Positions 2,007 through 47,381 of a stretch of DNA of 64,000 bases are shown here, piece after piece. Under the pieces are notes generated by a model that was not told the origin of the DNA, ran no database searches, and saw only the letters and a list, made by a program, of their open reading frames with translations. The DNA is from Desulfosudis oleivorans (GTDB lineage Bacteria; Desulfobacterota; Desulfobacteria; Desulfobacterales; SURF-7): assembly GCA_020723305.1 (NCBI GenBank), contig DYJC01000001.1:62001-126000 (forward strand), read 5' to 3'. The first letter of the stretch is position 1, and each line of letters begins with the position of its first letter. Both the position numbers and the translations under genes were made by a program.

Positions 2007-3633
2007 ACTTCTCAAGGAAAAAGGAATCCTTACAGAAGCACATATCAAGTATGCCCTTCAGGAACAAAAAATCAGCAAGATGAGGGTGGGTGAAATTTTT
2101 GAGCGACTCGGTTTTGTGACGGAGTACGAAGTTGTAACCACCCTATCTGAACAAGAAGGAATACCTTATATTGATGTGGATGAAATACTTCCGAATGAAC
2201 AGTTGCTCAAAATGTTCAATAAAAATCTTTGCCTGAACAACTCGTTTCTACCTATCCGGGTCCATGAAAAAATTGTTGAGATCGCCGCTCATAATCCTTC
2301 TGACCCGAAAATTGGGCAACTGGTCTCCAGACAGACGGGTCTGATCCCTTCTTTTTTTATGGCGGAAAGAACCAAGGTGATCAATGCGATCAATAAATTC
2401 TTCTATTTTCTTGAAAATCCGGTTGAACGTCTGATTGAAAATGAGATCAACCTTCTTTCTCAGGATCGTGAAATGGCCAGGGGTATGGATACGCTGGTAA
2501 AATATATTCTTCACCTTGCAATAAAAATGAGGACCACCGATATCCATATCCAGCCCATGAAGCAGGCGATTAATATCTCCTTTCGCATTGATGGTGTTTT
2601 GAATTCGATCATGTTCCTTCCTGTTTCGCTGAACCGGATTGTTTCAACAATCAAATTAAAAGCAGATATGGATATCGCCGAACAAAGACTACCCCAGGAT
2701 GGACGTTTTTCAGCAATGATCCTGAATAACAGTTACGATTTCAGGGTATCCACAATTGTTTCTCCTCAGGGAGAAAACATGGTGCTACGCATCCTTCCCA
2801 TGGAAACAGCGATTATGGGTATGGCACAGCTAGGATTCCTTGAAGAGCATATTAAAATCGTTGAAAACATGTTCAACGAACCATTTGGCATCATTCTGTT
2901 GACCGGCCCTACGGGGTCCGGTAAATCCACAACCTTGTATGCCGGTATCCGAAGACTGGATCTTCTTCATAAAAACGTCATTACCGTAGAAGAACCGATT
3001 GAGTATGATATCCCGCTCCTCCGCCAGACCCAGGTCAATGAAAAAGCAGGTTATACTTTTGCAAATGCAATACGATATTTTCTTCGCCATGATCCGGACG
3101 TAATCCTGGTAGGGGAAATCAGAGACAAGGAAACAGCCGCAACAACCATCACTGCTTCGACAACAGGCCACCTTGTTTTATCCACCCTGCACACAAACAG
3201 TGCAGTAGGTGCCATACCACGACTGAGAGATCTTGGCGTAAGACCATTTCTTATCTCCGATTCCTTGATCGGTGTGGTCAGCCAGCGTCTTGTAAGAAAA
3301 ATATGCAAATCCTGTAAAGAGTCCTATACACCTTCGGAAAAAGAAAAAAAATATCTCCGGGATCAATCCATTTCCCAATTGTTTCGTGGAAAAGGGTGTG
3401 ACGTTTGCGGCGGATCAGGATATTTCGGAAGAACACTGGTATATGAGTTGCTGACGGTTGACCGTGTTCTTGCACTCATGATCGAACAGGAATCGGATCT
3501 GCACCGCATTATGGAAACGGCCAGAGACGGCCGGTTTGTGGATATATCGGATATTACTGCAATCAAAGTAAAACAGGGAATTACAACTACCGAAGAGGCT
3601 GTGCGTGTCCTCGGTAATATACGGCAGGTTTAA
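1972..3633 (+). CDS. gspE: GspE/PilB-family secretion ATPase
   Basis: A 553-residue hexameric ATPase that powers pseudopilus or pilus assembly from the cytoplasmic side. The N-terminal 150 residues form a T2SSE_N/MshEN-like domain. The core has Walker A GPTGSGKSTTLYA, the aspartate-box region with VEEPIEYD, Walker B ILVGEIRDKETA and a histidine-box region around LSTLHTNSAVGAIPRL. Four cysteines near residues 445-487 (CKSCKES and CDVCGGSGY) form the zinc-binding subdomain typical of GspE/PilB. The start ATG at 1972 lies inside the end of the ExeA-like gene and is preceded by AAGGA. Length and motif order are normal for the family. Confidence 0.93.
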   Translation: MTQEKTKKFLGELLKEKGILTEAHIKYALQEQKISKMRVGEIFERLGFVTEYEVVTTLSEQEGIPYIDVDEILPNEQLLKMFNKNLCLNNSFLPIRVHEKIVEIAAHNPSDPKIGQLVSRQTGLIPSFFMAERTKVINAINKFFYFLENPVERLIENEINLLSQDREMARGMDTLVKYILHLAIKMRTTDIHIQPMKQAINISFRIDGVLNSIMFLPVSLNRIVSTIKLKADMDIAEQRLPQDGRFSAMILNNSYDFRVSTIVSPQGENMVLRILPMETAIMGMAQLGFLEEHIKIVENMFNEPFGIILLTGPTGSGKSTTLYAGIRRLDLLHKNVITVEEPIEYDIPLLRQTQVNEKAGYTFANAIRYFLRHDPDVILVGEIRDKETAATTITASTTGHLVLSTLHTNSAVGAIPRLRDLGVRPFLISDSLIGVVSQRLVRKICKSCKESYTPSEKEKKYLRDQSISQLFRGKGCDVCGGSGYFGRTLVYELLTVDRVLALMIEQESDLHRIMETARDGRFVDISDITAIKVKQGITTTEEAVRVLGNIRQV

Positions 3634-3640
3634 TAGGTCT

Positions 3641-4873
3641 ATGGGGTATTTCAGATTTAAACTACTATCACCTTCCGGAAGAATTTTTTCCGGATTTATC
3701 AAGCTCCCTTACCAGGATGAAATGTCTGCGATTTCCCATCTTGAACGGGATGGAAGTACTGCAATCCATGTCGGCAAACCCGGTATGATCTACTCCTTTT
3801 TATTGCATCTTGCCTCCTTCAGCCTGCAACAAAAAATGTCTCGTTCAGACCAGACTGAATTCCTGAGCAATTTATCTCTGATGCTCCGTTCGGGTGTGCC
3901 GATATCATCCGCACTCAAAGAATCTTCTGCTTCATCCAGTCTTCCTGAAATTTCAAAAGACATCGAGGATATGATTATATCGATACAAGGAGGATTAACA
4001 TTTTCCGAAACTGCGTCCAAATATTCTCATATTTTCCCAAAAACGATCCTTCACCTGATTCGGATTGGAGAGGAAACCGGACAACTGGATGAAATGCTGA
4101 AAAAAGGTGCCGGTCATCTTAAGAGGATTGATGGAATCATCAGTGATACCAAACAGGCACTCCTATACCCATCTTTTGTCTTTTTCATGCTTGGTGCGGG
4201 GCTAATTTTCTGGTTTTACTTTGTTGTGCCTAAAATTGTTACCCTGTTTGTCGAAATGAACGTCAGCCTTCCAGGCCTGACGGTATTCCTGATCTGGCTG
4301 TCTGAAATTGTCCAGAACTATCTATTTCATATTCTCAGTGGGACTGCCATTATCATCATGATGTTGTCGTATCTGTACAAGGGAAGCGTGAGAGGACAAA
4401 AAATCATTGATTCTGTACTGCTCAATCTTCCTCTTTCCGGAACAATCATCAGGGCATCCTCTTTAGCCTTTATCACGGAATACTTATCCCTGCTGTTGAG
4501 TTCCGGAATCGACATCCTGCAATCCTTAAAAATCCTGAGGGAATCGATTTCCAACAGCATTTACAAAGAGAGCCTCAATAATATTCTGGAAAGCGTGTCC
4601 AGAGGGGATGGCATTGCCGGTTCATTTAAAAATGCGAAACTGTTTCCACCTTTTGTGATACGCATGATCGGTATAGGAGAGATGAGCGGCACCTTGACCG
4701 AACAGTTGACCTATATTGCAGAGGAATATAAAAACAAGCTTTCCATTCTGGTGTCCACGATTGGGAAAATCATTGAGCCGGCTGTATTGATTATTGCCGG
4801 CATCATGTTTGCGATCATCATCGGTGGTTTGCTGTTGCCCATATATGATCTGGTCGGGCAGATCAGCAAATAA
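3641..4873 (+). CDS. gspF: GspF/PilC-family inner-membrane assembly protein
   Basis: A 410-residue polytopic platform protein of type II secretion or type IV pilus systems and partner of the GspE ATPase. It has the two repeated T2SSF domains (around residues 60-180 and 260-380) and hydrophobic segments near 165-190, 210-230 and 375-400. I chose ATG 3641 because the family's N-terminus (GYFRFKLLSPSGRIFSG) begins there. An upstream in-frame GTG at 3605 would overlap gspE without a family match. No pseudopilin gene follows; the operon ends here in a repeat-bearing intergenic stretch. Confidence 0.9.
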   Translation: MGYFRFKLLSPSGRIFSGFIKLPYQDEMSAISHLERDGSTAIHVGKPGMIYSFLLHLASFSLQQKMSRSDQTEFLSNLSLMLRSGVPISSALKESSASSSLPEISKDIEDMIISIQGGLTFSETASKYSHIFPKTILHLIRIGEETGQLDEMLKKGAGHLKRIDGIISDTKQALLYPSFVFFMLGAGLIFWFYFVVPKIVTLFVEMNVSLPGLTVFLIWLSEIVQNYLFHILSGTAIIIMMLSYLYKGSVRGQKIIDSVLLNLPLSGTIIRASSLAFITEYLSLLLSSGIDILQSLKILRESISNSIYKESLNNILESVSRGDGIAGSFKNAKLFPPFVIRMIGIGEMSGTLTEQLTYIAEEYKNKLSILVSTIGKIIEPAVLIIAGIMFAIIIGGLLLPIYDLVGQISK

Positions 4874-5177: not shown

Positions 5178-5774
5178 ATGAGACAGATTGATGCCAAAGG
5201 TATGGCATGCCCGACACCGGTAATTCAAACCAAGGCAGTCATAGAAAAAGAGAGCCCGGAATCGATGGATGTTATCGTTGACAATGAGGCTGCAAGTCAA
5301 AATGTCAGCCGGTTTTTACAATCCCGGCACTATAAGGTTACCGTAGAAAAACAAGGCAATGACTTTCATGTTCAAGGGCGGAAAGACCCGGACAATACAC
5401 TCGAACCAGCATCTCAGCCTCAACCAAAACCGGATCATCAAAAAATCCTGGTCATGATCAGTTCTGATAAAATCGGCAATGGTGATGATGAGCTTGGTGA
5501 AAAACTGATGGTCAGTTTTTTGAAAACCCTGAAGGAGATGGGCTCTGATCTATGGCGTCTGGTATTTGTGAATAATGGTGTCAAACTGACCATTGACCAA
5601 TCCCTGGTTCTGGAAGAGCTGAAATATCTTGAAAAAACCGGAACCCATATCCTTGTATGCGGCACATGCCTCACCCATTTTAATCTTCTGGAAAAAAAGA
5701 AAGTCGGACAAACCACCAACATGCTGGATATTGTCACATCAATGCAGCTTGCTGACAGGGTGATCAATCTGTAA
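5178..5774 (+). CDS. yedF: YedF-type selenium metabolism protein (TusA-like plus DsrE-like domains)
   Basis: A 198-residue fusion of an N-terminal TusA/SirA-like domain (residues 1-70, with the CPTP motif starting at Cys11) and a C-terminal DsrE-like domain (from about residue 88). Its cysteines lie in the CGTCLTHF segment. This architecture matches the YedF family, which co-occurs with selenium metabolism genes; the exact reaction is not settled. The start at 5178 is preceded by AGGAG. The presence of the gene fits an organism that makes selenoproteins, relevant to the candidate selenoprotein at 45338-45502. It appears to be monocistronic. Confidence 0.88.
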   Translation: MRQIDAKGMACPTPVIQTKAVIEKESPESMDVIVDNEAASQNVSRFLQSRHYKVTVEKQGNDFHVQGRKDPDNTLEPASQPQPKPDHQKILVMISSDKIGNGDDELGEKLMVSFLKTLKEMGSDLWRLVFVNNGVKLTIDQSLVLEELKYLEKTGTHILVCGTCLTHFNLLEKKKVGQTTNMLDIVTSMQLADRVINL

Positions 5775-14224: not shown

Positions 14225-15607
14225 TTATTCTTCTCCTTTCAGATGCTCAGGAACAATAACCATACCCAACAACAAAGGTTTTATGAAAGACCATCGGATA
14301 CCGATCTTATAGGTTTCCTCAAGATCCCGAATCGCATCCCAGCAGTTATGGCAAGGAGTGATAACCAGTTTTGCTCCCGTCTCCAGAATCTGATCGCGTT
14401 TAACCTTCTGTCCGATATTTCGTTGTTCACGGTATCGCCCGATACCATTTAACCCGCCGCCACCACCGCAGCAAAAGTTGTGTTCTCCACAGGGTTTCAT
14501 TTCCCTGAAATCCTCAGCAATATAACCCATGATATCCCGGGCATCTTTTCGTAATCCTGCATTTCGAATATAATTACAAGAATCCTGATAGGTTACCGGT
14601 TCTTTAATTTTTTTGACCGGATCAATTTTCAGCTTGCCGGTTCGCAATGCATCCGCAACCCATTCAACATAATGTAAGGTTTCGACAGGAGGCTTACCGG
14701 ACTGTTGTCCTGTCCAATAAGGCCCTTCAATCACCGTTGCCCGATAAGCATGCCCGCATTCCGTGACAACCATCTTTCTGGGCTTCAGTCTTTCAATCGC
14801 ATCGTAAACCGATTTTACCTGAAGCCGACTCCCTTCCCAATCACCTGCAAACATGGCAAGGCTGGTTTCTTCCCAGCCCTCACTGGGCACTGTCCAATTT
14901 TCACCGGCAATATGAAACAGAATTGCCGCATCGCCAAGATCCTCCGGATAATGTTTGGGTTCCCGCGCATTGACTGTATAGATAATATCCGCATTTTCCT
15001 TATCAATCGGAATCTCCAGTTTCGGCCACTCATCCTGATTTTCTTCCACCATCCATTCACATGTATCCACCCAGTCTTCGGTTGTAATATCCATCTGCGC
15101 ACGATAGATTCGATGCATACCAGACCCGATTTTCATTTCCCAAGGTACAAATCCCTGCGAAAAACATACTCCTCGCAGGTAGCTGAACATGACACCCATA
15201 TCAATGCCAAATGGACAATACATCCCACACCGGTTACAACAGGTACATTTTCCCCAGGCCGTATCCATGGCATAACGCATTAATGCATTATCCACATCCC
15301 CTTTCCGCTTCACAATCTCCCCCAGGGTTGATTGTATTTTATATGAAGGGACCTGCTTGGGGTCTTTATGGTTGGAAAGGTAGAAAAAACAACTATCCGC
15401 ACACAATCCACAATGGGCGCAGATTTCAAGCCAAGTGCGCATTCGGGACTTGAGTGTTTTCCGGATAATGTCCCGCAAAACTTCCTGGTCGATATCCAGC
15501 TTTTCCATCTCCTTATAATATAAAGTTCCGCGTGTATCGGCCAGAAGCGCATGAAGCTGCTCCTTGGTATTCACAGGTTGTTTGTTGCAAAGAGTTCCTT
15601 CAGGCAT
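14225..15607 (-). CDS. hmcF: HmcF-like iron-sulfur protein (HdrD-like, CCG domain)
   Basis: 460-residue cytoplasmic iron-sulfur subunit of the Hmc transmembrane redox complex, related to the HdrD subunit of heterodisulfide reductase. Two [4Fe-4S] motifs are visible ([11 protein letters not shown] near 61 and [13 protein letters not shown] near 119). They are followed by the CCG-type cysteine motifs CNYIRNAG and [14 protein letters not shown] near the C-terminus, which in relatives hold a non-cubane cluster. It is the last gene of hmcABCDEF and starts 35 bp after hmcE, with AAGGAA upstream. By analogy with Desulfovibrio it links membrane electron flow to a cytoplasmic partner. Confidence 0.92.
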
Positions 15608-15642
15608 ATTGGTTTCCTTAATGAATATTGATTAACAGTCAA

Positions 15643-16326
15643 CTACCAAGTAATACCGCCTCCCTTCATCCCCCCACGTTTTATGCCGAAATCCATACCA
15701 AGTTGCGCACGTGACATAAAAAAAAGGATGATATGAGAAAGCTTTGTAAATGGTACGGCAATCAGCCAGATTTCACCGCTGATGATGTGCGTAATCAGCC
15801 AAAAATTGTATGGCGGAACCTGTGTATGAGCCAAAAAACCGGTTAGAAATGGAAGAATCGAGATACAAAGCAATAAAATATCATATGAAGTAGTTAAAAT
15901 CCGTACCTCAGGCAGGGAAAATCTTCTCAACAGAAGAAACAGGGCTGATACCAGTACAGCTATTGTCAACATATCTGCTGTAGTTTCCGAAATGGTGAAT
16001 AAACTGATACCCCACCGTTCCTGGAGTAATATATTATGCCCCAGGAGAAAAACAGGAGTGATCAGAAGGCCTGCATGAAACGTGAACACCAGGATTGTAA
16101 ATCCCGGATTATTCCGCCAGCTTTGTGAGCCAAAAGGAATGATCCAAAAAAAGATTGATTTGATTGCGCCCCTGATTCCATAAGAAACATTTTTCGTATA
16201 GGTAACCCTGTCCAGTCTCCAATCAAGGCCTTTGATATACATGATGGATCGAAGCAGAATGCCGATGAAGAAAATCAGGAAGGAAAGCCAGGCCATCGGG
16301 CCTGTCACAATATTATACATATCCAT
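15643..16326 (-). CDS. hmcE: HmcE-like membrane cytochrome b subunit
   Basis: 227 residues with about five transmembrane helices (near 10-30, 65-90, 95-115, 125-145 and 155-180). It resembles NarI/DsrM-type di-haem cytochrome b subunits of respiratory complexes. Histidines in hydrophobic segments (FHAGLLITPVF, HIISGEIW) are candidate haem b ligands. It lies between hmcD and hmcF in the order known from Desulfovibrio. The start ATG 16326 is preceded by GAGGAG. As part of the Hmc complex it would exchange electrons with the menaquinone pool or pass them towards HmcF. Confidence 0.88.
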   Translation of the reverse strand: MDMYNIVTGPMAWLSFLIFFIGILLRSIMYIKGLDWRLDRVTYTKNVSYGIRGAIKSIFFWIIPFGSQSWRNNPGFTILVFTFHAGLLITPVFLLGHNILLQERWGISLFTISETTADMLTIAVLVSALFLLLRRFSLPEVRILTTSYDILLLCISILPFLTGFLAHTQVPPYNFWLITHIISGEIWLIAVPFTKLSHIILFFMSRAQLGMDFGIKRGGMKGGGITW

Positions 16327-16341
16327 CTCCTCAAGAATTGA

Positions 16342-16476
16342 TTACTGATCATCATCTCTTGCTGTTAAAAAAAACCAGAATCCGAATAATCCCAACAGTG
16401 ACAAAAGCATTATCAAATAGGTTACACTCTCGGTGTGTAATAGAAAATGATGAAGGGTGTAGAAGGTCTCGTTCAT
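16342..16476 (-). CDS. hmcD: HmcD-like 44-residue membrane subunit
   Basis: A small frame between hmcC and hmcE that automatic calling easily misses. It reads MNETFYTLHHFLLHTES, then one transmembrane helix (about 19-37) and the polar end LTARDDDQ before TAA. The ATG at 16476 is five bases downstream of the hmcC stop, with GGAG inside the end of hmcC as a binding site; the hmcE ATG follows 15 bp after its stop. HmcD of Desulfovibrio is a similarly tiny single-helix protein in the same operon position. The identification therefore rests on position, size and topology. Confidence 0.82.
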   Translation of the reverse strand: MNETFYTLHHFLLHTESVTYLIMLLSLLGLFGFWFFLTARDDDQ

Positions 16477-16480
16477 TTGG

Positions 16481-17656
16481 TTACTGCTCCTCTCCTTTGT
16501 AATCCGGGTGTTCATAAAGTATGGGCATCCTGGTTACAATAAATCGGTAGAATAAAATGATGAGCATGACAATGAAAACGGAGATGCCGATCTCCATCCA
16601 ATGAGGGAAATATCTGTCACTGGCCGGCAAATGCCAGTTAAATGCGATGACAGATATATTCAACCTGTTTATTACAATACCAAGAACTGTCCAGGCTGCG
16701 GTAAACCGGATCAACATCAAATTTTTATCTCTAACACCCACTGCATATAAAAAACACGGCAGCGCAATAAAACCGATCATTTCAACCAAAAACCAGATTC
16801 CATATGGCGTCGTCAGCAGATTCCAATGATTGCCGGCAGCGACTCCAATTATTTTAATGGTAAAATAACCGGCAAGAACCAGTGATGCGGCTTTTCCAAA
16901 CCCTAGGGTTAACGAATCAGATTCAGAGAGATGCTCTTCATCCATTTTATCATGAAATGCTCGATGGGAAAGCATTCCTTCAAACATGACCATTGAAAGC
17001 CCTGCGATAATGCTTGAAACAAAGAAAAAAACCGGTAAATAGGGGGAATACCACAATGGGTGAAGTTTGGATGGTGCAATCAAAAACAACGCGCCAAGAG
17101 AGGACTGGTGCAGGGTTGAGAGCACAACTCCGAAAATTGTTAGAACCATTGTAAGTCTGACTGCGAGATACCGTGTTTTTTTGAACCCAAGCCATTCAAG
17201 AGGAGCTGGTGAGAATTCCAAAAACAGCACCGTCAGATACAAAGCCACACACAGACCGACCTCGAATAAAAGAGATGTCGTTCCCCAGCCCACGATAAAA
17301 GGATAGGCCAGTCTCCAGGGCCTCCCCAGATCATAATGAAGTGCAACAACGACAAAGAGATATCCCAAAAATCCGGTCAAGACTGCGGGTCGAACCGCAA
17401 AATGATACTTTTTCATTCCAAAGATATAAACCGCAGCAGATGTAACATATCCGCCTGCAGCAAGGGCAACGCCAACCAGAAGGTCAAAACCGATCCAGAT
17501 TCCCCATGGGTTGTAATCCGAAAGATTTGTAGCAGCCCCTAATCCTTTTGTAAATCGAATCGCTGTTATAATAAGCCCCATCAGAACCACCATTCCGGCA
17601 ATCACATTAAAGGGGGTCATAACTGTTTTTTTTCCTGTAATTATCTCTCCAGACAT
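16481..17656 (-). CDS. hmcC: HmcC-like NrfD-family membrane subunit
   Basis: 391 residues with about ten transmembrane helices, of the NrfD/PsrC family of quinone-interacting subunits. Family segments visible are GIWIGFDLLVGVALAAGGYV in the first quarter and HQSSLGALFLIAP midway, with FEVGLCVALYLT between. It probably works with the HmcB iron-sulfur protein at the periplasmic face and forms the proton/quinone module of the complex. ATG 17656 is preceded by GAGGAG. It lies 101 bp downstream of hmcB. Confidence 0.93.
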   Translation of the reverse strand: MSGEIITGKKTVMTPFNVIAGMVVLMGLIITAIRFTKGLGAATNLSDYNPWGIWIGFDLLVGVALAAGGYVTSAAVYIFGMKKYHFAVRPAVLTGFLGYLFVVVALHYDLGRPWRLAYPFIVGWGTTSLLFEVGLCVALYLTVLFLEFSPAPLEWLGFKKTRYLAVRLTMVLTIFGVVLSTLHQSSLGALFLIAPSKLHPLWYSPYLPVFFFVSSIIAGLSMVMFEGMLSHRAFHDKMDEEHLSESDSLTLGFGKAASLVLAGYFTIKIIGVAAGNHWNLLTTPYGIWFLVEMIGFIALPCFLYAVGVRDKNLMLIRFTAAWTVLGIVINRLNISVIAFNWHLPASDRYFPHWMEIGISVFIVMLIILFYRFIVTRMPILYEHPDYKGEEQ

Positions 17657-17757
17657 CAGGATTTCTCCTCAAATTGCGTCTTATCATCTATGGTTTTGAT
17701 TTATCATTTTTCACTTCGGAAAAGGCGTCCGCGCCCTTGGCTACCCCCTCCAGCACT

Positions 17758-18789
17758 TTACTTGATGCCCTTTTCTTTTTCCTTTTCTGCTGCCTCCATG
17801 GCCTTTTTCTTGCCAAGTCTTTCTTTCTCAATTGCTGCAGCAATTTTCTTTATTGATTCATGGTTAGCACGCTCCACTGCCGCAGCAACCGCCCCTTCCT
17901 GTTCAATGAATGCATTTTTTTCTTTTCTTTTTGTCATACCATAAATACCGGTTAACAGAACCGGCCAAAGACCCACAATCATCGGAACAATACTAAGCGC
18001 TCCGGATGTGAGCTCAGGCCCTGATTTAATTCCCAGATCTTCACGCATTCCGATTTCATGGAATGGAACACCGGAAAGATAAAGCCAGCTTGTTCCACCC
18101 ATCTCATACTCCCCATAGACATGATCAATATATCGATCCGGATTGTTACGAATCCTTTCCCTGGCAATCGAAAGAAGATTTTTTCGTTTTCCAAATGTTA
18201 AGGCTTCCGTCGGACATACTGAAACACAGCCTGGAATTTCTCCCGCTTCTATCCGCGGTGCACACATGGTACACTTAACCACGCGAGGTGTTAATGGTTC
18301 GTCATATTCATAGGCAGGAATATCAAATGGGCATGCAATCATACAATAACGGCAGCCAACACACACATCCGGGTCATAGGTTACCGGACCGTTTGGTGTT
18401 TTCGTGAAGGCTCGGACAAAACACGCAGATGCACATGCTGGTTCCAGGCAATGGTTACACTGAATTTTCCTGAAGACCGGTTTTTCTGAAGCGTTCTTGC
18501 TGATATACTGGTTTACAACAGTGAAGGCTTTTGTTGTTGTTCTTCTGTTTTTGGCAAGAACGGTTTGATCGGAAAATAATGTGTCCGGTTCCGGCAATTC
18601 ATTTATCTTGTTGCAGGAATCCTCGCAAGATCGGCAACCAACACATCTTGTAATATCGTGTAAAACACCTTTGCTGTCAGGAAAACCACTGAACTGACTT
18701 ATGGATGAAGCACCGGCAGGTTTACCAATTGAGGCCGAGATTCCCGCCGCCCCTATCCAGCCTAAAAACTTCCTTCTTGATATGCCCAT
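17758..18789 (-). CDS. hmcB: HmcB-like periplasmic four-cluster ferredoxin
   Basis: 343 residues. The N-terminus is a twin-arginine signal ([13 protein letters not shown], Arg5-Arg6), so the folded protein is exported by Tat. Four cysteine groups typical of DMSO-reductase-type iron-sulfur subunits follow: [37 protein letters not shown] and [15 protein letters not shown] transmembrane helix near 265-288 anchors it, and an unusually long charged, Ala/Glu/Lys-rich tail (about 295-343) looks like a coiled coil. It connects the multihaem HmcA with the HmcC membrane subunit. ATG 18789 has AGAGGT upstream. Confidence 0.92.
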
Positions 18790-43815: not shown

Positions 43816-45108
43816 TTAATCGTCAAAGTTCCCTTTCGATCCTTTGTCACTATCAATGGCAGCTGCTTTTTCCTTGATTTTATCCGGTGTCCAGTCATCC
43901 GGATTTTCAATCCTTCTAATTTTCGGTCCAGGATCACACGATCCAGCGTCATTGATTGCTTCGATTGTTAATGGTGCCGTGTTCTCCGCATTCAATACAC
44001 TCACAAGCATGTTATATGCAAAATCTTCAACTCGCTTCGACATCCGGTCTCTTACTGACTTTTCCTGGCCCAATAGTCTATTTTCAAACGGCAGATTCAG
44101 TTTCTTGAAGTCCCCCCCCTTGATACCACGTTCCTTTGCATAGGAAAGCATGGCATTCCACATATCCTCAGACACACCCTGGTCCTTAACTTTAATAAAA
44201 TTTTTCTCACCATCAAGAATGGCATTGCCATAATCATTGACCTCAAGACCCCAGGAAATCATTTGAAGGGCTGTTGCCACATTTGCTTTTGTGGTTCTTG
44301 TCATGGCCGCAATCTCGCGGAGCCGGTCAGAACTGTTGCCGGATGTACCATGTTGTGCTCCGGAAACATGATATTTTGAAATCGCCTCGTGTATCTCTGA
44401 TGTTAACCCGACCTGGATACCCTGAGCGCTTTCCTCGATCCCATGTGTCGTCCCGTTATTCAAAGCGATCCAATCCGGGAAGATATTATGTGCGTTCAAT
44501 CCGGCAATGAGAAACACTGCCTCCTCCTTGGTGGACAATCCCTCTTTCCCTTTAATCTCGCCTATTTCCGTCTCCAGTCCTGCCCAATCCGGAATATAAG
44601 GTCTTAATTCAATATTTGCATTCAAATTTTTATCATCCGGCATATGGGATGCATCAATAGCAATGGATGTGATTCCAGCCTCAAACATGGAAGGAATTTC
44701 CACTTTTGCAAGAGCGAGTTCACTTTCTTTCTTGATTCCATAATGATCTGCATGAATCGCTACAGGGACAGTGATCCCCAATTCATTACATACGGCATCA
44801 ACCTGCCTTGCTATATTCCAGAAATTCACAGCACAATATGCATTCGCTCCTCCCTCGGATCTGGCAATTTCAATAATAATCGAAGCATTTGCGCGCTGAG
44901 CTGCTTTCAATGCACCACGGATCACAAATAAACTTCGACCGTTTGCAGCAATGGTAACCGCTTTTCCTTTTGCAATCATTCCCCGGTCAATAAACCGTCC
45001 GCTTACAATCAAGGCTTTTGAATTTGGAAACAGCTTTGTTATGTTGGGGGGTCTTCCGACCTGCAGGGCTTTTTGAAAATCTTTAGAATTTATTGAATTA
45101 CCTGACAT
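43816..45108 (-). CDS. fba: Class II fructose-bisphosphate aldolase family protein
   Basis: 430 residues, a zinc-dependent class II aldolase for fructose 1,6-bisphosphate or a similar substrate. IHADHYGIK carries the catalytic Asp and zinc-ligand His, NNGTTHG provides another zinc His, and VSGAQHGTSGNSSD resembles the phosphate/substrate loop. It is longer than E. coli FbaA (359 residues), with an extended C-terminus of about 80 residues. ATG 45108 has AAGGAGGT upstream. It could act in glycolysis or gluconeogenesis. Confidence 0.88.
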   Translation of the reverse strand: MSGNSINSKDFQKALQVGRPPNITKLFPNSKALIVSGRFIDRGMIAKGKAVTIAANGRSLFVIRGALKAAQRANASIIIEIARSEGGANAYCAVNFWNIARQVDAVCNELGITVPVAIHADHYGIKKESELALAKVEIPSMFEAGITSIAIDASHMPDDKNLNANIELRPYIPDWAGLETEIGEIKGKEGLSTKEEAVFLIAGLNAHNIFPDWIALNNGTTHGIEESAQGIQVGLTSEIHEAISKYHVSGAQHGTSGNSSDRLREIAAMTRTTKANVATALQMISWGLEVNDYGNAILDGEKNFIKVKDQGVSEDMWNAMLSYAKERGIKGGDFKKLNLPFENRLLGQEKSVRDRMSKRVEDFAYNMLVSVLNAENTAPLTIEAINDAGSCDPGPKIRRIENPDDWTPDKIKEKAAAIDSDKGSKGNFDD

Positions 45109-45337: not shown

Positions 45338-45502
45338 ATGATAAAAATTATGCTTGAAATCATTCTGTTTTTTGCAATCATTGGCCTGTGGATTGTTTTA
45401 CAGACCTATATCCTACCTAAAATGGGCATCTCAACGTGAGTCCGGGATGCTTGTCAGGTGACAGGGAAGAAAAAAAAAGATGACGAACAAACCCTTATGT
45501 GA
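45338..45502 (+). CDS. Candidate small membrane selenoprotein (in-frame UGA as Sec)
   Basis: A 33-codon frame starting at 45338 encodes one transmembrane helix (about residues 5-22) and ends ILPKMGIST before TGA at 45437-45439. If the TGA is read as selenocysteine, the frame continues U-VRDAC-QVTG and a lysine-rich tail to a real stop at 45500-45502, giving 54 residues with a UxxxxC pair next to the membrane. Sixteen bases after the TGA lies the loop AGGT on a 6-bp stem, which matches the spacing and apical G/U of bacterial SECIS elements. The start lacks a good ribosome binding site. The end overlaps the CoA-transferase gene by 23 bp. Without read-through it would be a bare 33-residue membrane peptide. 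Confidence 0.5.
45450..45465 (+). promoter_or_regulatory. SECIS-like hairpin downstream of the in-frame UGA
   Basis: CTTGTC pairs with GACAGG (one G-U pair) around the loop AGGT. The loop begins 16 bases after the UGA of the candidate selenoprotein. The E. coli fdhF SECIS has an AGGUCU loop about 17 bases after its UGA. The 3' side also contains the AGGGAAG that probably serves as ribosome binding site for the gene starting at 45480, so the two uses may compete. Confidence 0.5.
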
Positions 45503-47381
45503 CGCACCGTCGAATAAACCAAACAGTGGCAACTGGGAAGATAAAATCGTTAAGCCGGAAGACGTATTGGCTAAAATTCAACCAGGTATGAGTATCTTTA
45601 TCGGAACAGGAGTGTCTGAACCCAGAACACTGGTCAAGGAACTCATGTCTTCAAACAAGGGGAACTTACAGGACCTTGAGTTGATTCAGGTGGTCAGCCT
45701 TGGTGATGCGATCTCCATCAAGGAGTTACGGAACCAGAAATTCCGTTTAAAAACTTTTTTTTCCGGATGGGTTGCCAGTGAAGCGATCACGACCGGAAGA
45801 GTGGACTTGATTCCAAGCCGGTTTTCTCTGATTCCGAAACTCATCTCATCCAGACAAATTCCCATTGACGTGGCTTTTATCCAGATCAGCCCTCCGAATA
45901 ATGCGGGTTATTGCAGCCTCGGCGTTTCCGTGGATGTTGCCCATGAAGCAATTGCGCAGGCCTCGATCGTCGTTGGTGAAGTAAATATGGATATCCCGAT
46001 AACCTATGGAGATACCTTTTTCCCCGTTTCTCAATTTGATATGCTTGTAAAATCGACAGAACCTCCGATCTATTTTCCAAGGTGGCCGATTGATGATATC
46101 TACGATACGGTTGCAGCTAATGTTGCCTCTGTGATCATGGATGGCAGTTGCATTTTTTTCTCCATCGGTCCTTTATATGAAGCCCTGAGTTGCCATCTCA
46201 GGCACAAGCATAACCTTGGTGTTCATACGCCTTTCTTTACGGATGCGCTAATGGACCTCGTGAAAAGCGGGGCCGTAACCAACCGGAACAAAGCAACATT
46301 CCGTGGTAAGTCCGTCGCCTCTTATGCGTTTGGCACTAAAGAGCTTTTTTCCTGGCTGCATCGAAATCCGATTGTTGAATTTCAGAGCGTTGACAAAGTG
46401 TTTAATTCCGAAGAGATTGGTAAAAATCCCAGATTTGTCTGTATCCTTCCAGCCAGAAAGGCAGATCTTTCCGGACGGATCGCCCTCCATTATGGGAAAG
46501 GAAATGTAACCGCCGGTCCGGGTGAGGCCATGGATTTTTTTAATGGTGCTGAGCTATCAAAAGGCGGATACTCTGTCTTTGCCCTTCCCAGCCGAAACCT
46601 AAAAAAAGAACCCAACATCAAGATCAGTGTCGAGAACTACAACAACCTGTTCAATGTCAGAGAGTCTGTGAACATGGTTGTGACAGAGTATGGCGTTGCA
46701 AACCTGGCAGGCCGGACTCTGCGGGAGCGAGCACAGGCACTTATCGAAATTGCACACCCGGATGACCGGGAGGAACTCATCAATCAAGCCAAAGAACAAA
46801 AAATCATTTATCAGGACCAGATATTTATTGCTGAAGCAGCAAGCTTTTATCCATCTGAAGTAGCCACAAAACACACCTTCAAAGGAGGAGTCGAAGTCCG
46901 ATTCAGAGCCATCCGTCCATCTGATGAAGAAGAAATGAGGAAACTGTTTTACCGTTTCTCAGACGAAGCTGTCTATTATCGTTATTTTGCTAAAATCAAG
47001 GCCATGCCCCACTCCAAAATGCAGTCATACGTCAACGTGGATTATAGAACTACCATGTCCATTGTTGGAGTAGTTGGAGATCAAGGGCAAGGAAAAATTA
47101 TCTGTGAAGCAAGATTCATCAAAGACAAAAATACTCCGCCAAATGCCGATGTTGCCTTTATCGTTGACGAGGAATATCATGGTATCGGAATCGCGACCTA
47201 CCTTTATAAAAACCTGATACGAATCGCGAAAGATCGTGGGATTCATGGTTTTACAGCCGATGTTCTGGCTTCAAACACTGCAATGATGAAAGTTTTTGAA
47301 AAAGGTGGGACCGTAAAAGCAGAGCTGGATTATGGAACGTACTCACTTAAAATTCCTTTTGATTCATCTCCGGTCGCATAA
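45480..47381 (+). CDS. Acetyl-CoA hydrolase/transferase fused to a GNAT acetyltransferase
   Basis: 633 residues. The first 440 match the acetyl-CoA hydrolase/CoA-transferase family, with the N-terminal IFIGTGVSEPRTLVKEL and the C-terminal VVTEYGVANLAGRTLRERA, where the catalytic Glu lies. The last 165 residues form a GNAT domain (VRFRAIRPSDEEEMRKLF, then FIVDEEYHGIGIATYLYKNL for acetyl-CoA binding). The enzyme would move CoA between acids and the attached domain could acetylate a protein or small substrate. ATG 45480 has AGGGAAG upstream and overlaps the candidate selenoprotein. Confidence 0.92.
   Translation: MTNKPLCDAPSNKPNSGNWEDKIVKPEDVLAKIQPGMSIFIGTGVSEPRTLVKELMSSNKGNLQDLELIQVVSLGDAISIKELRNQKFRLKTFFSGWVASEAITTGRVDLIPSRFSLIPKLISSRQIPIDVAFIQISPPNNAGYCSLGVSVDVAHEAIAQASIVVGEVNMDIPITYGDTFFPVSQFDMLVKSTEPPIYFPRWPIDDIYDTVAANVASVIMDGSCIFFSIGPLYEALSCHLRHKHNLGVHTPFFTDALMDLVKSGAVTNRNKATFRGKSVASYAFGTKELFSWLHRNPIVEFQSVDKVFNSEEIGKNPRFVCILPARKADLSGRIALHYGKGNVTAGPGEAMDFFNGAELSKGGYSVFALPSRNLKKEPNIKISVENYNNLFNVRESVNMVVTEYGVANLAGRTLRERAQALIEIAHPDDREELINQAKEQKIIYQDQIFIAEAASFYPSEVATKHTFKGGVEVRFRAIRPSDEEEMRKLFYRFSDEAVYYRYFAKIKAMPHSKMQSYVNVDYRTTMSIVGVVGDQGQGKIICEARFIKDKNTPPNADVAFIVDEEYHGIGIATYLYKNLIRIAKDRGIHGFTADVLASNTAMMKVFEKGGTVKAELDYGTYSLKIPFDSSPVA

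Follow-up and report, generated by a model that had tools for sequence, protein, structure and literature searches.

The window, by which we mean the whole 64,000-nucleotide stretch analysed, contains at 45338-45502 on the forward strand a small frame that translates, with TGA read as selenocysteine (Sec, U), as MIKIMLEIILFFAIIGLWIVLQTYILPKMGISTUVRDACQVTGKKKKDDEQTLM. A sequence-only reading of this DNA had proposed a small membrane selenoprotein read through an in-frame UGA, and the layout was as it described: a first TGA at 45437-45439, a second stop, also TGA, at 45500-45502, and a Cys five residues after the Sec (U34 and C39, numbering from the first ATG). The extent of the frame stood while its start was revised, and translation probably begins at the second ATG, at 45350, to give a product of 50 residues. 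This start is favoured over 45338 because 105 of the 133 homologous genes have an ATG 29 codons 5' of the TGA and just 1 of 133 has an ATG 33 codons 5' of it, in a recount made free of an earlier rule that had chosen the start closest to 29 codons. The ribosome binding site is weak, as had been remarked, with no GGAG-like motif ahead of either ATG in the window. Across the homologous genes, a loosely defined ribosome-site-like motif falls within 16 nt of the chosen start in 121/133, compared with 25/133 in a 16-nt stretch farther upstream.

The gene upstream is divergent and belongs to the fructose-bisphosphate aldolase class II family (43816-45108, reverse strand). The overlap with the downstream gene, listed earlier as a doubt, was found (ATG at 45480), and some homologous loci overlap too. 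Elsewhere in the window, the YedF-type ORF that had been reported was seen at 5178-5774, a candidate that we take to be YedF-like from its N-terminal D..G..CP.P motif. A gene run at 14225-18789 on the reverse strand looks, to judge from the starts of its sequences, like one for a sulfate-reducer membrane redox complex.

Features of the predicted selenoprotein locus, in window coordinates
Feature	Position	Strand	Basis or remark
ATG of the sequence-only reading plus three more codons	45338..45349	+	likely untranslated; ATG at such distance in 1/133
N-terminal 29 codons: predicted membrane helix (residues 2-21) and LPKMGIST hinge	45350..45436	+	homologue ATGs, hydropathy, single-sequence model
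UGA predicted to be read as selenocysteine	45437..45439	+	TGA in 133/133 distinct family genes
20 sense codons 3' of the UGA: VRDACQVTGKKKKDDEQTLM	45440..45499	+	frame-specific conservation
Cys codon of the UxxxxC motif, probably the partner in a selenylsulfide	45452..45454	+	same spacing in 114/133
SECIS-type hairpin, stem CTTGTC/GACAGG, loop AGGT, 16 nt past UGA	45450..45465	+	bSECIS rules, covariation
Stop codon (TGA) of the predicted full-length protein	45500..45502	+	family final stops TAA 58, TGA 49, TAG 26
Next gene, acetyl-CoA hydrolase/transferase and GNAT domain	45480..47381	+	23 nt overlap; not a general family neighbour

Homologues were sought with a six-frame search in which the 54-residue protein served as query with Cys substituted for Sec. 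Of 59 genomes, a number that includes the genome of the window, 52 matched at E <= 1.4e-7, always with a TGA within the match. A profile of 28 sequences (A1) found matches in 303 of the 389 class genomes and in 167 of the 201 of good quality; every match among those listed contained a TGA, and the genomes listed from outside the taxonomic family all belonged to the same order. Across the phylum, A1 matched 83 of 198 genomes and a broader profile of 39 sequences (A6) matched 169 of 395, the latter with a TGA in each of the matches listed. Three listed rows of the A1 phylum search had no TGA (G513, G391 and G460): the G513 match stops short of the Sec position in a gene that does carry TGA (L132), and the other two (L133 and L134, 15 bits) were weak, judged unrelated and dropped. 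From another set of 15 matches, 14 were inspected (L177 was omitted), and TGA stood at the site in 13 rows from 12 genomes; the motif was not found in L189. Some genomes hold two or three copies, as in a tandem pair (G048:C244, 4654-4782 and 4879-5016) and in G058 (on C26, C44 and C134).

Extraction with a motif filter (P, then K or R, any one residue, then G) gave 131 distinct nucleotide sequences that carry TGA, plus 4 rows in which none was registered, a Cys relative (L091) and three sequences outside the family (L001, L003 and L130) having been excluded beforehand. Two genes that failed the filter, L109 and L118, proved on inspection to carry the TGA and brought the total to 133 distinct family genes, counts of which are not probabilities because related genomes are not independent. 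No further family gene was seen among the listed rows that failed the filter. A search of a plasmid collection gave no match to the family. Five pattern matches in viral contigs were rejected, none having a membrane helix 5' of the motif, and a weak TGA match in a Myxococcales genome (L176) was unrelated. At the syntenic site of a congener (L135, G001:C45:19800-20900, from about 484) there is a remnant in which the helix is absent, TGC replaces TGA and the Cys codon is now GGC; the gene appears dispensable in that organism, since only this decayed remnant is left.

The genome encodes the machinery that Sec insertion would call for, with selA (G000:C6:204148-205521, 623 bits), selB (C37:14756-16648, 382 bits), selC, the tRNA-Sec gene (C45:322359-322452, 73.3 bits), and selD (C41:10371-11294, 376 bits, in the contig that also holds the window) all above curated cut-offs. 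The selD gene itself carries an in-frame TGA, within SGUAAK, an independent sign of UGA recoding in this genome. In the wider sample, tRNA-Sec was above its cut-off in 182 of 198 phylum genomes and selB in 323 of 389 class genomes; machinery this common makes its co-occurrence with the family uninformative. At least six family-bearing genomes (G411, G434, G499, G521, G550 and G576) had only weak tRNA-Sec matches (best E 1.2e-7 or worse), which may reflect gaps in draft assemblies.

Several observations indicate that the UGA lies within coding sequence. Homologues with either Cys or TGA at the Sec position had been proposed as what to look for, and all 133 family genes have TGA there. Homologues that end at this TGA, named in advance as an outcome against a selenoprotein, were not found: an in-frame stop occurs within the next 13 codons in 0/133 genes, compared with 92/133 and 74/133 in the two shifted frames, and termination comes 13 to 36 codons past the TGA (131 genes). 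Nor was the VRDAC segment unconserved, since as a pattern it persists as UxxxxC in 114/133, with the Cys one residue later in 13/133 and farther away or absent in 6/133. Among the 114 genes with UxxxxC, with pairs more than 80% identical excluded, differing codons had a mean BLOSUM62 score of 1.28 in frame and of -1.02 and -0.78 in the shifted frames.

Were the UGA a true stop, the product would be a 29-residue membrane peptide and the conserved stretch beyond it only an RNA hairpin. The peptide alone would be a complete membrane helix, and UGA does serve as the ordinary final stop in 49/133 family genes. Final stops in these genes are however distributed over TAA (58), TGA (49) and TAG (26), and TAA and TAG would be expected at the first site too if it were an ordinary stop. 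Amino-acid conservation is moreover confined to one frame, which stays free of in-frame stops for at least 13 codons. In one gene (L005) a single extra base sits in the hairpin loop (CAGGTCGACAGG), and farther on the gene regains the frame that it shares with its relatives, as would be expected of translated sequence. Termination at this UGA is on these grounds barely credible. Recoding of the UGA as Sec is, by contrast, a prediction that we hold with near certainty, and the support for it is about the maximum that sequence alone permits. The selenoprotein interpretation of the sequence-only reading is thereby supported, and none of the outcomes that it had set against itself occurred.

A 6-bp stem with loop AGGT had been noted sixteen bases past the TGA. 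Stem and loop are both present, with 45450-45455 pairing with 45460-45465 (6 pairs, one G-U) around the loop at 45456-45459; the distance of 16 bases from the TGA applies to the loop and not to the stem. Taken alone the hairpin is unremarkable, with an energy of -7.0 kcal/mol over 44 nt (z -0.80) that 46 of 200 shuffles equalled or bettered, and it becomes convincing only through its homologues. That frame and hairpin arose by chance in AT-rich intergenic DNA draws on this lack of significance, but the family matches and the frame-specific conservation run so strongly against it that we count it as already refuted and next to impossible.

Published bSECIS rules, as given in the legend to Fig. 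2 of PMC13188914, describe an apical loop of 3-9 nt and an upper stem of 4-16 bp; the same source calls for a G within the first two positions of the loop and a distance of 16-37 nt from the UGA, and gives a minimum free energy of <= -7.5 kcal/mol. The window hairpin has this geometry (AGGT loop at 16 nt, 6 pairs), and its -7.0 kcal/mol slightly misses that energy. Across the family, a hairpin that follows these loop, stem and spacing rules occurs at a stem of >= 5 in 119/133 genes, compared with 21.6% of controls encoding the same protein with synonymous codons resampled, and at a stem of >= 4 in 129/133, compared with 46.3%. An energy of <= -7.5 over 48 nt was reached by 86% of homologues and 49% of synonymous controls (both folding lengths, 44 and 48 nt, were chosen in this analysis). 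Two main geometries occur among the 119, the loop lying 16 nt past the UGA in 58 and 23 nt past it in 38, and the commonest loops are AGGU (41) and GGA (32).

Covariation was examined in two subsets: A2 (56/133) comprises high-scoring UxxxxC members in which Q or R follows the motif (57 genes, less one with a loop insertion), and A3 (32/133) comprises UxxxxC members that have ED or GD as codons 8-9 past the UGA; the criterion for A3 was set after viewing the hairpins and favours the second geometry. Five measures were used, and relatedness may inflate three of them. Among these three, the number of cells that keep a pair although both of its bases have changed (26 in A2, 41 in A3) and the covariation score (0.249 and 0.453) were each reached in 0/500 shuffles. 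Sliding the pairing partner abolishes the covariation signal. Two other measures were not distinctive in A2, where 3 pairs had two-sided change (462/500 shuffles as high) and 8 further pair types were seen (339/500), and were weak in A3 (67/500 and 43/500 as high, respectively). The second geometry, as seen in A3, commonly has a GGA triloop 23 nt past the UGA, and the codons ATC GAG GAT CGA are frequent there, so that the IEDR motif of the protein may be dictated by the RNA. We conclude from the homologous sequences that the hairpin is selected as RNA across the family.

The hairpin also bears on whether the UGA might be read not as Sec but by some near-cognate tRNA (that for Trp, for example). 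Leaky readthrough of UGA is known in bacteria. It would leave unexplained a hairpin that covaries and follows the bSECIS rules in so many genes (the 119 above) beside a full set of Sec machinery, and neither TAG nor TAA occurs at the site in any of the 133 genes; we judge such decoding highly improbable.

Among 91 loci with enough flanking sequence, the neighbour lies on the same strand upstream in 64/90 and downstream in 50/88. No neighbour common to the whole family was found among the loci examined, and flanking genes vary. When neighbours at 40 loci were clustered, the largest cluster (19 loci) was a mixture whose members are linked through common domains, while those after it reached 5 loci. 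ECF sigma factor genes make up 8 of 27 scanned same-strand downstream neighbours, and 7 of these 8 overlap the end of the frame by 35-38 nt (starts taken from the longest ORF). An ECF sigma gene starts near or inside the frame end at L041, L055, L057, L058, L059, L019, L068 and L119 and, in 12-kb loci, at L100, L101, L114 and L116; at L101, L114, L116 and L119 it is followed by a small ORF that looks anti-sigma-like by eye. Upstream, among the neighbour families listed, MobB and a sigma-54 activator are minority neighbours (3/48 each), and at L108 a thioredoxin gene lies directly upstream.

These overlaps lend something to the idea that the frame is mainly a selenium-sensing leader, in which reading to the second stop, past the next start, switches downstream translation: the window has the 23-nt overlap listed in the table, and the ECF sigma loci have longer ones. 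Yet the downstream genes vary and lie on the opposite strand at 38/88 loci, and what is conserved is the helix, the LPKxG motif and usually UxxxxC, so that a leader as the main function seems very improbable.

Family members begin with about 20 apolar residues, close to the end of which stands a conserved Q or N. Next comes [ILVF][LF]P[KR]xGxxT-U; in most members a Cys stands five or six residues past the Sec, and the tail beyond is rich in lysine and varies in sequence. Pro, Gly and Sec do not vary across the 39 divergent members of A6, and helix hydropathy is >= 1.6 in 129/133. A single-sequence AlphaFold2 model (mean pLDDT 68) has a helix at residues 2-21, a break, and a low-confidence helix at 31-47. 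Net charge averages about +2.5 on the C-terminal side and -0.2 over the first four residues. By the positive-inside rule, which is well established, this charge on the C-terminal side suggests that the Sec faces the cytoplasm.

Taken as a whole, the locus very probably encodes a single-pass membrane selenoprotein of about 50 residues whose decoding is hairpin-directed. SelB with Sec-tRNA would decode the UGA at 45437-45439, guided by the hairpin that has its loop 16 nt farther on. Anchored in the membrane by its N-terminal helix, the protein would hold the Sec at the membrane surface, directly past the conserved LPKxGxxT turn, with a Cys usually five residues on and a lysine-rich tail that we infer to be cytoplasmic. 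So arranged, the protein could act as a membrane-tethered selenol/selenylsulfide redox element serving a membrane partner, with a metal ligand as the less likely use of the Sec; a redox role is plausible on these sequence features, and we would put it at an even chance.

A selenoprotein whose Sec is a ligand for metal or metalloid, in delivery or efflux, and not a redox centre seems unlikely, though it deserves weight. An ORF that we take to be P-type-ATPase-like from its sequence lies upstream at 3/40 loci (cluster 9). Some members (L160, L165, L170 and L179) retain the Sec where the Cys is lost; the Sec, rather than a Sec/Cys pair, therefore looks essential, which leaves room for metal binding. 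In PMC13188914, binding is predicted for about 20% of selenoprotein families, of which about 70% concerns metals or metal-derived groups. Against a ligand, a Cys stands five or six residues on in 127/133 genes, and no metal-transport family appears among the best 25 of the 64 upstream and 47 downstream neighbour families.

A full-length Cys form of the protein was seen neither in the matches inspected nor in one narrow-pattern scan of 84,980 species; the scan pattern, LPK[LM]G[IV][SA]TC, matched 6 stretches, of which 1 was confirmed, and other Cys forms would escape it. From its sequences the family appears to be a selenoprotein, a microprotein of the membrane in which Sec is apparently the only residue used at this site. 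A broader reading, which we offer tentatively, is that it is a Sec-only microprotein core to one bacterial phylum, in which the Cys is optional and no full-length Cys version exists. The membrane-surface selenol would then be irreplaceable by Cys, and the protein perhaps a small cofactor-like subunit in anaerobic membrane redox chemistry. Gene finders drop peptides of about 30 residues, and methods that rely on Cys/Sec pairs are blind to such a family, which would explain why it escaped notice.

Held just as tentatively is the suggestion that some members contain two Sec residues. Three genes of one genus (L180-L182, from G588, G650 and G669, with LLP[KR]LGLPSU) have a first TGA with no Cys after it. 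Some 20-30 codons on comes a second in-frame TGA, after which the frame reads DGPSCSIG or DGQSCSIG and, within a few more codons, ends at TAG. A perfect CGATTGG/CCAATCG hairpin with loop GGG or GGGG was seen by eye 3' of the second TGA, which is probably a second Sec with its own UxxxxC.

If these readings are correct, current catalogues lack a selenoprotein that is common in these bacteria, together with the share of their selenium demand that it represents, and discovery by Sec/Cys pairs has a blind spot for families in which Cys is not used. A protein of 50 residues with a seemingly irreplaceable Sec would be a compact system in which to ask why selenium is used and not sulfur, and two SECIS geometries within one protein family would allow SECIS evolution to be studied directly.

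We compared the family with catalogued domains and selenoproteins. The window protein had no match in Pfam or NCBIfam, and the best E-values for the 39 divergent members were 0.022 (NCBIfam) and 0.023 (Pfam), none plausible. Table 1 of PMC13188914 gives 119 bacterial selenoprotein families and subfamilies; compared by motif and description, with at least 12 rows carrying no motif, it has no family with the same motif and domain. The family was thus not found in the literature searched, that table, Pfam or NCBIfam, which is not proof of its absence elsewhere. With known bacterial selenoproteins (SelD, FdhA and the families of that table) it shares an in-frame UGA, a SECIS-type hairpin and genomic Sec machinery, whereas no entry in Table 1 of PMC13188914 is a one-helix microprotein with UxxxxC. 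The nearest spacing there is the UxxxxU of TsoB, a rhodanese/DsbD fusion.

The deep-Sep method, which according to PMC12013277 scanned Desulfosarcina and Desulfosediminicola genomes among others, yielded three hypothetical families. The motifs of DG (GUxG) and DW (GxU), as given by PMC13188914, differ from that of the family, and DF is described in PMC12013277 as being without TGA homologues elsewhere, unlike the family here. Fujita et al. 2007 (PMC1914089) presented a cytochrome candidate, GSU2937+GSU2936, as a rare selenoprotein without non-selenocysteine homologues. That candidate resembles our family in this respect and in likewise coming from deltaproteobacteria, and it is set apart, by its description in PMC1914089, as a multiheme cytochrome.

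The sole Cys relative found, a protein of an uncultured Myxococcales (L091:3986-4507), shares with the family an N-terminal helix and LPKLGVAT-C, with Cys (TGC) where the family has Sec. It differs in having a fused DUF302 domain and no Cys at the UxxxxC spacing, and its gene adjoins one with DsbA/thioredoxin domains (2513-3916). A parallel in manner of working may lie in the eukaryotic selenoproteins K and S, which have one membrane helix and a C-terminal Sec. This likeness is put forward as one of working, and the bacterial family is much smaller and carries its SECIS within the coding region.
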